Assembly (NCBI GenBank): GCA_013003535.1
Contig: JABDIY010000028.1
Location: 89,631-153,630 of the forward strand
Direction of reading: 5' to 3'
Length of the DNA stretch: 64,000 bases
DNA from: Acidimicrobiales bacterium
Lineage (GTDB): Bacteria; Actinomycetota; Acidimicrobiia; Acidimicrobiales; SZUA-35
Below, piece by piece: positions 19,412 to 39,083 of the stretch. The notes under the pieces were generated by a model that was not told the origin of the DNA, ran no database searches, and saw only the letters and a program-made list of their open reading frames with translations. The translations under genes were made by a program, and so were the position numbers. Within the stretch, counting starts at the first letter, position 1, and each line of letters starts with the position of its first letter.

Positions 19412-20449
19412 CTACAGCAACCCAATCTGGCCGGGTCCGGTGGCAGTTCTCCCGATAACGGCTGCAGTGTCGCCACTTGTCTCGAGTTGTTCGGTTACAC
19501 CGGCGGTTCGATCAGGATCGACACCAAAAACCAGCCCGCCCGACGTCTGGGCGTCGGCCAACATCAGGATTGTGACCTCATCCACCGACCCCACCGTCAC
19601 CTGACTTTTGATCCAATCCCAGTTCCGTCGGGTTCCGCCCGGGATCATTCCCGCCATCGCCAGTTCACGGGTGCCAGAAACATAGGGAACCGCGTCCACG
19701 AGGAGTTCAACATCGACTCCAGATTCCTTCGCCATACGGCCCAAGTGGCCGAGAAGCCCGAATCCAGTGATGTCTGTGCAACCGGTGGCACCGCTATCGA
19801 GAGCGGTTCGTGATGCGGACGCGTTGAGCCGAATCATGGACATCACCGCGTCCTTCGCCACGTCGGCCGAGGCGGCGTCGGCTTTGATTGCGGTGGTGAT
19901 GATCCCGATGCCCAACGGTTTGGTGAGAATCAAATCTTGCCCGGGACGTAGGCCGGTGTTTGTGAGCATCTTTCGCGGGTCAACCGTCCCCGTGACCGCC
20001 ATGCCATACTTCGGCTCGGGATCATCCACGGTGTGCCCGCCCGCCACAACAAACCCCGCTTCGAGAGCGATATCGGTTCCACCGGCCAGAACTTCGCCCA
20101 ACAGAGATGTGGGCAAAACATCTACGTTCCAGCCCACCAGGTTCAAGGCGAAGATCGGCGTTCCCCCCATCGCATAAACATCGCTCACCGCATTGGCCGC
20201 TGCCACCCGACCCCAGGTTCTGGCGTCGTCTACTACGGGAGTAATGAAGTCGGCCGTGGCGACGAGAGCGCGGTCTTCTGCCAGGCGCCAGACGGCGGCG
20301 TCATCGCCCGTATCAGGGCCAACGAGGAGGTCCGGATGGGGAGTGGGAGTCAACTGGCTCACCACGTGAGCCAACTCGCCGGGAGCGAGTTTGCAGCTTC
20401 AACCCGCGCCGTGGCTGAATTGCGTTAACCGAGTTGGTCGTTCGCTCAT
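19412..20449 (-). CDS. selD: Selenophosphate synthetase, itself a selenoprotein
   Basis: Makes selenophosphate from selenide and ATP, the selenium donor for Sec-tRNA. Read from the ATG at 20449 the start is MSERPTRLTQFSHGAG-U-SCK, aligning residue for residue with E. coli SelD (LTQYSHGAGCGCK). The TGA at 20399-20401 falls exactly on catalytic Cys17, and Lys20 is kept. Downstream come the ATP/Mg motifs GPDTGDDAAVW, NAVSDVYAMGGTPIFALNL, VVAGGHTVDDPEPKYGMAVTG and CTDITGFGLLGHL. Length with Sec is 345 residues, normal for SelD. If TGA were a stop, translation would have to start at an inner codon (20374) and lose the catalytic loop. A TATCGT box 7 nt upstream supports the ATG. It follows the second DMGDH-like gene by 60 nt. 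Confidence 0.97.
20373..20391 (-). promoter_or_regulatory. Candidate bacterial SECIS stem-loop of selD
   Basis: On the minus strand, AACTCGC-TCCCG-GCGAGTT forms a perfect 7-bp hairpin starting 7 nt after the TGA. The pair GG sits at nucleotides 22-23 from the T of TGA, as in the formate dehydrogenase element, although here the first G lies in the loop and the second opens the 3' stem. Confidence 0.65.
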
Positions 20450-36520: not shown

Positions 36521-36781
36521 TCACAGCGGGTCGAGATCGCCGAAATCAAGATCGATCAACGGTGGACCATCGGGCGTCTGCGCCACAGCTTCGGGCACCT
36601 CGCTGGGAACATCATCCATCCCCAAAGCCTGGCCCAACCCGAGCATGGCCGCCATGAGAATCGAGCCCTTGTGGCGCGGAATCCCGCTAGCGGTGGGCAG
36701 GAGCGGCTCAGTGCGCGTAGCGTCTCCCTCGTCCTCCGCCTCCCAGCTGAACCCCGACATGAGGTCAAGCCTAGATTGCAT
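36521..36781 (-). CDS. Small acidic hypothetical protein, 86 residues
   Basis: Not recognised. Visible parts: MQSRLDLMSGFSWEAEDEGD, a short helix GSILMAAMLGLGQALGM that may be amphipathic rather than membrane-spanning, and an acidic tail LIDLDFGDLDPL. ATG at 36781 or seven codons later at 36760. Divergent from the ECF sigma factor gene with 91 nt between the starts. Coding is likely from codon use and the acidic, ordered composition. Confidence 0.5.
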   Translation of the reverse strand: MQSRLDLMSGFSWEAEDEGDATRTEPLLPTASGIPRHKGSILMAAMLGLGQALGMDDVPSEVPEAVAQTPDGPPLIDLDFGDLDPL

Positions 36782-36872
36782 CGTCGGCGGAGTTCCGCCG
36801 CCATCAGCGGACGCTCGATGTTTTCTCTCATCCTGAAAGGATCCGGGCGCATCCGGACACAAGACTAAATGC

Positions 36873-37394
36873 ATGGCTTCCTCCGACCCATTCGATGCGT
36901 TGTTCAATAGCACCTACCCCCAAGTGGTGGCCTACGCCCGACGTCGGACCGCCAATGCTCAAGACGCCGATGACGTGGTTGCCGAGATCTATGCCACCGC
37001 CTGGCGGCGCCGTGATCAGCTCAACAGCATTCAGACTCCGTTGGCCTGGTTGTACGGCATAGGCCTGAACGTAGTGCGTAACCTTCGCCGGGGGGATCGG
37101 CGGCACCTCCGGCTTGTTGGTGCCGCCCAATCCCAGGCTGCGGCGGCCACCCACGCTTCAGATCCTGCCGATGCCATCCAAATCCGTGACGCCCTCGCCA
37201 CCATCCCCGACGATGATGCGGAGCTCCTACGCCTCGTTGCGTGGGAGGGGCTCTCCCATAGCGAAGCCGGAGACGTACTCGGATGTTCGGCCAATGCCAT
37301 AGGAATTCGACTCCACCGGGCGCGTCAACGACTCGACGCCGCCCTCTCCCCCACCTCCAATCCTCCCCACCAGAACAAAGCGAGCAACCAATGA
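36873..37394 (+). CDS. ECF-type RNA polymerase sigma factor
   Basis: A 173-residue sigma factor. Region 2 is visible as FNSTYPQVVAYARRRTANAQ and DADDVVAEIYATAWRRRDQL, region 4 as LLRLVAWEGLSHSEAGDVLG followed by CSANAIGIRLHRARQRLDAA. It directs RNA polymerase to an unknown stress regulon. Its stop overlaps the ATG of the next gene as ATGA (37391-37394), the usual linkage between a sigma factor and its membrane partner. AAGACT lies 6 nt before the ATG. Confidence 0.92.
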   Translation: MASSDPFDALFNSTYPQVVAYARRRTANAQDADDVVAEIYATAWRRRDQLNSIQTPLAWLYGIGLNVVRNLRRGDRRHLRLVGAAQSQAAAATHASDPADAIQIRDALATIPDDDAELLRLVAWEGLSHSEAGDVLGCSANAIGIRLHRARQRLDAALSPTSNPPHQNKASNQ

Positions 37395-38395
37395 CCTCCT
37401 CCCCGGATCCTTCCTCAGTCGATCTCAGCGATCTCCGCGCGGCAGACCCGGTTCGCATGGCTGATCTACCTCGAGCCTCCGACCCCGATGCAGTTGCATT
37501 GCTCCAGCGGGTGTCGGCTATTTCTTCCCCCACCCCGGCCCAAGCCCGCCGCGGCCTCCGCAACCGATTCGTCCCTCTTGGTGCGGTGGCCGCGGCGTTC
37601 CTGGTAGTAGTAGTCGGGTTCACCGTCTTCAGTCCCTCCAATACAGAAACAGCGCTGGCCACAGTGAAGACCGCGGCGCAGGAAGTTGCTGCTGCCGATT
37701 CGGGCCGGGCCACCACCGGTTTCGAGGTCGACGGTGTCAGCAATGGTGTGTCAGACCGCGCCGCTGGTACGGCCGTTCTCACCTTCAACGGCAACAATTT
37801 TGCAGTCACGCTCGATCTCGACGATCTTCCCCAAGAGCTCAAGGACCAGAGCGATGGCATGGGTGATCTTCTGAGCGAGGTGGAGACCCGATTCGTGGAC
37901 GGAGTGATCTATGGCCGGGGCGGACCGGTCGATGATTGGATTGCGGTCGAACTGCCCTCAGTCTTCATAGACCAGATCCGCGAAACCGCCGATCCCCGTT
38001 CAGTTCTCGAGACAGTACAAACGCTCGTGGAAACCGAAGAGGTAGGAGCCACCACCATCGAGGGCGTCGAGGTCACGCACTACCAGAGCATCGTGGATCT
38101 CGACGAGAAGTCGCTCGCAGAATCCGGATGGCTTGCCGGGGTCGACTCGCAGATCGATGTAGACACCGACGGGACCCTTACGGTGGATCTCTTCGTTACG
38201 GGTGCCGGCCAGCTCATCAAGATCGACGTATTCGGAACTTTGGCTGCAACCGAGGCGACCGACAGCATGACGGCAACCTTCTCGATCTCCACGCTCTTCA
38301 CAGACCTGAATGCCGTCGCTCCCATCACCGCCCCCGAAGGCGTGGTGCCTACTCCGTTCCTAGCTGGCGAACTTTTCGAAGAACCGGGCAGCTAG
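37391..38395 (+). CDS. Membrane-anchored putative anti-sigma/sensor protein
   Basis: A 334-residue single-pass protein: cytoplasmic N-terminal 60 residues, one membrane helix (VPLGAVAAAFLVVVVGFTVF), then an extracytoplasmic domain rich in beta strands that resembles LppX/LprG-type or outer-membrane-carrier-like folds (FEVDGVSNGVSDRAAGTAVL, TIEGVEVTHYQSIVDLDEKS). Coupled by ATGA to the sigma factor gene, it is its likely regulator; no classic zinc-binding anti-sigma motif is visible in the N-terminal part. The seleno-thioredoxin gene follows 61 nt downstream on the same strand. Confidence 0.75.
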   Translation: MTSSPDPSSVDLSDLRAADPVRMADLPRASDPDAVALLQRVSAISSPTPAQARRGLRNRFVPLGAVAAAFLVVVVGFTVFSPSNTETALATVKTAAQEVAAADSGRATTGFEVDGVSNGVSDRAAGTAVLTFNGNNFAVTLDLDDLPQELKDQSDGMGDLLSEVETRFVDGVIYGRGGPVDDWIAVELPSVFIDQIRETADPRSVLETVQTLVETEEVGATTIEGVEVTHYQSIVDLDEKSLAESGWLAGVDSQIDVDTDGTLTVDLFVTGAGQLIKIDVFGTLAATEATDSMTATFSISTLFTDLNAVAPITAPEGVVPTPFLAGELFEEPGS

Positions 38396-38456: not shown

Positions 38457-39083
38457 ATGGTGTTGACGAGACGGGCAGCCGCCGCTGCCGCGATCGGCCT
38501 GATAGTGGCCGCGTGCGGAACCGGCGACCCGCTTCCACAGATCGAAGCCGGCGGCGACCCTTCATCCACAACGGCGACAACCACGGTCACCACAGCAGAG
38601 CAAACGACCTCGTCAGTAGCCGGCGCTCCCCCTTCTACAACAACGGCACCGACTCTCACCACCGGGACTCCAGTCGCCGCCGATGCCCCCAATCCCTTCC
38701 CCGACCTCATCGCTACCGATGTCGCCACCGGCCAAAGTGTGAGCCTTCGCAGCCTCGGCGAGACCGGAACCCCGGCAGTGCTTTGGTTCTGGTATCCGCA
38801 TTGACCGGGCTGTCGGGCCGAAGCGCCCGTCGTTGAGCAGTTCGCTCAGCAGAATCCCGAAATCAAGATCGTTGGGATCGGTGGTCTTGACTCCCTGTCC
38901 CTAGCGGAAGACTTCAGGTCCAGCACCGGTGCCAATTTCCAGCTCCTCTGGGACGGTGAGTTCAATATCTGGCGTCACTTCGGAGTTAGTCGCCAACACA
39001 CGGTCCTCGTCTTCAATGGGGCGGGCGAACCGGTGGACAGCTTCAACCGCTGGGACGGCGACCGAGTTCTGGCCGCACTCTGA
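38457..39083 (+). CDS. Selenocysteine thioredoxin-fold lipoprotein (UxxC active site)
   Basis: A TlpA/ResA-type thiol-disulfide protein of 208 residues when the TGA at 38802-38804 (codon 116) is read as Sec. The signal peptide MVLTRRAAAAAAIGLIVAAC gives a lipobox ending at Cys20, followed by a Thr-rich linker (residues about 30-72). The fold then starts with FPDLIATDVATGQSVSLRSL and reaches PAVLWFWYPH-U-PGCRAEAP, which equals the canonical W-C-P-P-C-R-A-E-x-P with Sec for the first Cys. The frame continues without break to the next TGA at 39081 with normal fold elements (KIVGIGGLDSLSLAEDF, FQLLWDGEFNIWRHFGV). Oddity: the usual cis-Pro before the last strands is absent (SRQHTVLVF). Located outside the membrane, it may reduce or isomerise disulfides or peroxides. 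Confidence 0.92.
38814..38829 (+). promoter_or_regulatory. Weak candidate SECIS hairpin of the thioredoxin-fold gene
   Basis: CGGGC-CGAAGC-GCCCG forms a 5-bp stem with a 6-nt loop starting 9 nt after the TGA; the 3' arm can also pair with CGGGC at 38806-38810. It lacks the GG-containing loop seen at the formate dehydrogenase and HesB-like genes, so it is the least convincing of the four. Confidence 0.4.

Follow-up and report, generated by a model that had tools for sequence, protein, structure and literature searches.

Among the predicted selenoproteins of bacteria, the Prx-like thiol:disulfide oxidoreductases, which belong to PF00578 and carry a UxxC or UxxU motif, are listed as a high-confidence predicted family in Table 1 of a 2026 review (PMC13188914). 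The described proteins that come nearest to the one studied here have cysteine in place of selenocysteine (Sec): they are DsbE and DsbF of M. tuberculosis, which oxidise hirudin in vitro and whose presumed membrane partner is DsbD or Rv2877c (PMC3853704). In the present work, our analysis points with high confidence to a selenoprotein that would be a lipid-anchored, extracytoplasmic thiol/selenol oxidoreductase with a thioredoxin (Trx) fold of the DsbF/DsbE type (ResA/TlpA-like, PF00578), with the active site Sec116-Pro-Gly-Cys119 and a SECIS-directed UGA116.

The gene is located on the forward strand at positions 38457..39083 of the window, by which we mean the whole 64-kb stretch of DNA that was analysed. 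If codon 116, a TGA, is translated as Sec, it encodes a seleno-thioredoxin-like lipoprotein of 208 residues, with a Trx-fold domain at about residues 78-208. The open reading frame 38457-39083 begins with MVLTRRAAAAAAIGLIVAACG, reads VLWFWYPH-TGA-PGCRAEAPVV around the internal TGA, ends in LAAL, and is closed by a second, terminating TGA at 39081-39083. The protein starts with MVLTRRAAAAAAIGLIVAAC-G, followed by a Thr/Ser/Ala-rich linker and then by the domain containing W-F-W-Y-P-H-(TGA)-P-G-C-R-A-E-A-P. A signal peptide (38457..38516, forward strand) ends in the lipobox V-A-A-C20 (VAAC, residues 17-20, recognised by eye), C20 being the predicted site of lipid attachment; in five aligned lipoproteins from the genome of the window, neither A19 nor C20 varies. 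On the strength of this lipobox, the protein is predicted to be lipid-anchored and extracytoplasmic.

A preliminary description of this DNA had proposed that the TGA joins two fragments of one frame and replaces exactly the first active-site Cys. Both statements were borne out: the TGA at 38802..38804 (forward strand) interrupts the frame at codon 116, and homologue alignments place it, as U116, at the first active-site Cys column of relatives, where it opens a UPGC active site whose second residue, Cys119 (38811..38813, forward strand), is invariant in alignments A2 and A3. The further statement that the frame continues after the TGA beyond chance was upheld by homology, and openness of the frame proved to be weak evidence, with 144 of the 1936 TGAs in the window (7%) having at least 50 open codons on either side and the TGA at 38802-38804 ranking tenth of these 144 by codon usage. 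Since open frames around a TGA are common in this G+C-rich window, the case for Sec rests on homology. About 200 residues can be aligned across the TGA in species of the same genus (46-48% identity, E down to 9e-58), and the 86 codons 3' of the TGA gave dN/dS values of about 0.26-0.39 in same-genus comparisons, with changes mostly at third positions, a pattern that indicates purifying selection on the aligned post-TGA sequence. A codon-usage scan, which is blind near gene starts (for example, in selD), gave no clear candidate for another Sec-type TGA in the 64-kb window.

The frequency of such open frames and the fact that a single base change gives Cys, the residue of non-Sec homologues, would fit a pseudogene or a sequencing error, with the TGA being either a genuine stop codon or a misread TGC/TGT, and what follows it no more than a remnant. 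However, the identical TGA codon recurs in at least 117 genes from many independent assemblies, nearly all of Acidimicrobiia (the collecting pattern missed some), which excludes a miscalled TGC/TGT, and purifying selection past the TGA, the covarying hairpin and the correlation with selA described below argue in the same direction. None of the homologues ends naturally at this position; they either keep the TGA or, in lineages without selA, have Cys. We rejected this explanation, which is refuted in practice by the conservation of the TGA and which we regard as vanishingly improbable. Standard gene callers stop at residue 115, upstream of the active site, and would truncate all TGA-bearing relatives likewise.

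The genome of the window (4.0 Mb, 221 contigs, 95.8% complete) was checked for the machinery of Sec synthesis and insertion, as the preliminary description had advised, and all of its parts were present. SelA (386 bits) adjoins SelB (268 bits) on contig C169, SelD was found with 374 bits, and the tRNA-Sec, with anticodon TCA according to ARAGORN, scored 67.8 bits, over the cut-off. The selD gene, encoding selenophosphate synthetase, is in the window itself (19412..20449, reverse strand), and it too is interrupted by an in-frame TGA, at 20399-20401 in the motif GAG-U-SCKL. Two features by which a bacterial selenoprotein is recognised are thus found: an in-frame UGA where non-Sec homologues have Cys, and encoded SelA, SelB, SelD, and tRNA-Sec. 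A conserved in-frame UGA alone does not specify the residue, and the codon could also be read through or reassigned, to Trp, to Cys, or by a suppressor, with no Sec involved. Yet UGA still serves as a terminator for this gene and its neighbours, the position is that of the catalytic Cys column and tracks selA, a SECIS hairpin lies downstream, and the Sec pathway is complete. On these grounds, reassignment without Sec was rejected as well, being scarcely more probable than the pseudogene or error. Judged from the sequence evidence, the internal TGA is almost certainly read as selenocysteine.

The bacterial SECIS (bSECIS) model describes a hairpin 16-37 nt from the UGA, with a stem of 4-16 bp, a loop of 3-9 nt with a G within its first two bases, and an energy of -7.5 kcal/mol or lower (PMC13188914). 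The hairpin GUUGAGC-AGUUC-GCUCAGC at 38832..38850 (forward strand) agrees with every clause of this model: it has 7 bp and a 5-nt loop, AGUUC, in which G is the second base and U the third, a distance of 34 nt from UGA to loop, and an energy of -8.9 kcal/mol (z -3.86). Counted from the U of the UGA, it occupies positions 31-49, and its pairs show the exchanges C-G/U-A and A-U/G-C/C-G among homologues. Changes on both sides numbered 33, compared with 15.5 in shuffles, the covariation score was matched in none of 500 shuffles, and sliding the hairpin partner abolished the covariation. Averaged over 60 genes, the 14 codons that follow the TGA hold more RNA structure than codon-preserving shuffles do (mean z -1.3 to -1.45), which was true of no other stretch tested; taken singly, the window gene gives weak codon-preserving energy scores (z -0.2 to -1.1), and only the pooled set is convincing. 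Decoding of UGA116 by SelB and tRNA-Sec, as directed by the putative SECIS hairpin 38832-38850, is strongly supported by these comparisons.

Other RNA elements were considered. A hairpin at 38814-38829, at about 15 nt, was rejected as SECIS because its columns, once aligned, showed no covariation (52% paired, as against 51% in the swap control); the hairpin at 34 nt was therefore preferred. A long lower stem proposed by RNAalifold was set aside, as it pairs mostly coding-invariant positions, and Rfam at gathering thresholds gave no match in the 64-kb window. Two paralogues from the genome of the window (L003 and L004) are without an AGUUC-type hairpin and have CTGCGGTCGCAG, with a GGUC loop, closer to the TGA, which is possibly a different SECIS class.

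Four genes of this genome have a TGA at the same column, giving the motifs UPGC, UPTC, UTSC, and UPTC; in the three paralogues, the contexts are PH-U-PTC, PW-U-TSC, and PW-U-PTC. Homologues were found in 38 of the 39 genomes of the family, with as many as eight matches in one genome and most with one TGA, and every family sequence that was read out carries the TGA in the column of the first Cys and continues for about 90-100 residues beyond it. A scan of genome contigs yielded 79 loci, nearly all of which have a TGA at this column; most come from Acidimicrobiia, with many bearing the label Acidimicrobiales. In the order (108 genomes), among those genomes with a homologue, TGA forms occurred in 31 of 32 that have selA and in 0 of 5 that do not, as tallied by hand; the association gives a Fisher p of 1.4e-5, a value that treats these related genomes as independent. 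Two exceptions were encountered: one genome with selA has only homologues without TGA (G054), and one from the family set has a TGA form with selA not found, its assembly being 87% complete in 630 contigs (G019). The genus g7 is without selA, and none of its homologues has an internal TGA; the three that were read out have CGTC, CPSC, and CPQC.

The Cys forms L143, L145, and L150 of g7 are without the EQFA stretch that overlies the SECIS hairpin in the Sec forms, and keeping the hairpin may restrict the amino-acid sequence open to the latter. Some relatives in the family have two TGAs and a double-Sec UxxU motif, U-P-[F/H]-U, together with Arg at the cis-Pro column (L136-L140, L151, and L153-L155); no UxxU form was seen in the genome of the window itself. 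Tandem pairs of seleno-thioredoxins about 600 nt apart also occur (L068, L070-L072, L084, L085, L089, L091-L093, and L102), and in most of these pairs His stands at the cis-Pro column of the first copy and Pro at that of the second; three further loci of this kind are without His (L078, L086, and L096). Such selenoproteins are unusually numerous in the Acidimicrobiia and have been little described, and no dedicated selenoprotein paper on this class was found in the open-access literature that was searched.

Upstream of the seleno-gene on the same strand are an ECF sigma factor gene (36873..37394), which is a conserved neighbour, and the gene of a probable membrane anti-sigma partner (37391..38395), with one apparent TM segment, whose start overlaps the sigma stop so that the two share four bases. 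The product of 37391-38395 gave weak matches to the SCO4651-family lipoprotein and to anti-sigma models, both below cut-off. The partner stop at 38395 confirms the 61-nt gap to the seleno-gene, from which, together with the common strand, it could be supposed that the sigma factor, its membrane partner, and the seleno-protein form one envelope-stress operon in the window species, a reading compatible with the selenoprotein assignment. Two loci (L058 and L059) have the pair conserved upstream of their orthologue, and L029 and L030, which belong to the same genus, have the partner gene; the match values of L029 are nearly equal to those of L058, so that both may come from one species. Between the partner gene and the seleno-gene of L058 and L059, however, sits a DUF1499 gene on the opposite strand, and the pair is absent near homologues of other genera in the stretches compared. 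No ECF-type motif common to the regions upstream of the sigma genes and the seleno-gene was found: a motif like GAAAGGAT...TCCGGACACAAGA, conserved right before the ECF sigma genes (36713-36872 in the window, 1584-1750 in L058, and 1527-1686 in L059), is missing upstream of the seleno-gene and is perhaps the promoter or leader of the sigma genes themselves. Of the sigma linkage first proposed for this gene, then, the conserved upstream pair stands, and the inverted gene and the want of a shared promoter motif count against it. Co-transcription in the window species is possible, in an arrangement different from that of L058 and L059, and we consider a common operon rather doubtful.

The joined protein matches AhpC-TSA (PF00578) with 42.6 bits, above the gathering cut-off of 26, and also Redoxin, and its UPGC is the UxxC motif of PF00578 Prx-like oxidoreductases. 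AlphaFold2, run with 47 sequences, modelled a confident Trx domain at residues 81-208 with block-mean pLDDT of 94-99, and the Trx fold is well predicted. By sequence, Foldseek, and VIA-align alike, the nearest structures are M. tuberculosis DsbF (3ios; sequence E 1.4e-18, Z 19.6) and DsbE/MPT53 (1lu4; E 4.8e-15, Z 19.5), with 34% identity. The Cys that had been expected at the TGA column of homologues is there: CPTC of DsbF and CPFC of DsbE align with UPGC.

The usual cis-Pro, which had been described as lacking, is indeed replaced: at its column stands His181 (SRQHTV; 38997..38999, forward strand), as seen in alignments and conserved in the clade of the genus. The window protein thereby lacks the cis-Pro of actinobacterial DsbE/DsbF, and Pro is found in most UxxC relatives. 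In 121 aligned homologues, this column holds Pro in 83, Ser in 22, and His in 16, the contexts of His being QHT in the clade of the window and QHR in other Acidimicrobiia MAGs, where it is found in the first gene of tandem pairs. These two contexts and the separation of the clades suggest two origins of His, on a midpoint-rooted tree whose rooting is uncertain. Loss of cis-Pro may imply a chemistry unlike that of standard Trx. That His next to Sec-x-x-Cys marks a departure from plain disulfide exchange, with the surface protein binding metal or carrying out some other His-assisted chemistry of selenium, is a speculative idea to which we give little credence; if true, the UxxU relatives with Arg would be a second branch of such devices. 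The Sec forms, the natural Cys forms of selA-less lineages, the UxxU forms, and the forms in which cis-Pro is replaced by His, Ser, or Arg constitute a natural series on which the roles of Sec and of the cis-Pro position in an extracytoplasmic thiol oxidoreductase could be tested.

In the proposed mechanism, Sec116 would attack the substrate to give a mixed Se-S bond, Cys119 would resolve it into an internal Se-S bond, and the protein could be reset by a membrane partner, for example the CcdA-like protein of the genome. We lean slightly towards a role in reduction or exchange over one as an oxidant, given that Sec is a nucleophile of low pKa and that the genome of the window encodes a CcdA-type protein, with VKOR not found in it. 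The CcdA/DsbD-type gene adjoins a Cys-type ResA-like gene and not the seleno-gene, and the in vitro oxidant activity of M. tuberculosis DsbE and DsbF counts against this lean. Sec often raises peroxidase rates, and a seleno-peroxidase that mainly reduces peroxides like AhpC/TSA homologues, and not disulfides, was also weighed. The Pfam AhpC-TSA score, a structural likeness to Prx Q/Bcp (Z ~16), and the Arg of the UxxU relatives, which is reported at the cis-Pro position of peroxiredoxins (PMC2757866), are in its favour. The TxxU/TxxC peroxidatic motif typical of Sec-peroxiredoxins is absent, however, YPHU having Tyr in place of Thr three residues before Sec, the nearest structures are DsbF, DsbE, and ResA, and the CxxC-type partner Cys119 is invariant. 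We regard a main role as peroxidase as unlikely and retain the thiol/selenol oxidoreductase.

Compared with known systems, the window protein shares with DsbF and DsbE the extracytoplasmic Trx fold and the motif W-F-W-x-P-x-[C/U]-P-x-C; it differs from both in having Sec where they have Cys and in its long Thr/Ala/Ser-rich linker between the predicted lipid anchor and the domain, and from DsbF in having His where the latter has Pro at the cis-Pro column. With ResA, StoA, and CcmG it has in common the fold (Z 16-18 for ResA and CcmG; Foldseek E 5e-9 for StoA) and a predicted membrane-anchored extracytoplasmic setting, but only about 18-23% identity, and no NCBIfam model scored above its own cut-off, the values for ResA (NF002854), StoA (NF041202), and DsbE (TIGR00385) being 19.5, 22.7, and 23.2 bits against cut-offs of 170, 210, and 123. 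Pneumococcal Etrx1 and Etrx2 (4hqs and 2yp6) are lipid-anchored extracytoplasmic Trx domains (Z ~16), as is predicted for the window protein, but they are Cys proteins of a Firmicute with 16-19% identity. The WAxxUGC_long (NF041054), HUIPC-motif (NF047660), and other Trx-like selenoproteins of NCBIfam also have Sec in a Trx-type active site, and the window protein gave no match to NF041054 or NF047660 at E <= 0.01. To the Prx-like thiol:disulfide oxidoreductase selenoproteins of PF00578 it is linked by the Pfam match, by UxxC here, and by UxxU in its relatives, the comparison having been made through the Pfam score and the motif. The gene is a further predicted selenoprotein of this UxxC/UxxU type, a kind already known, with His in place of cis-Pro and in a lineage rich in copies.
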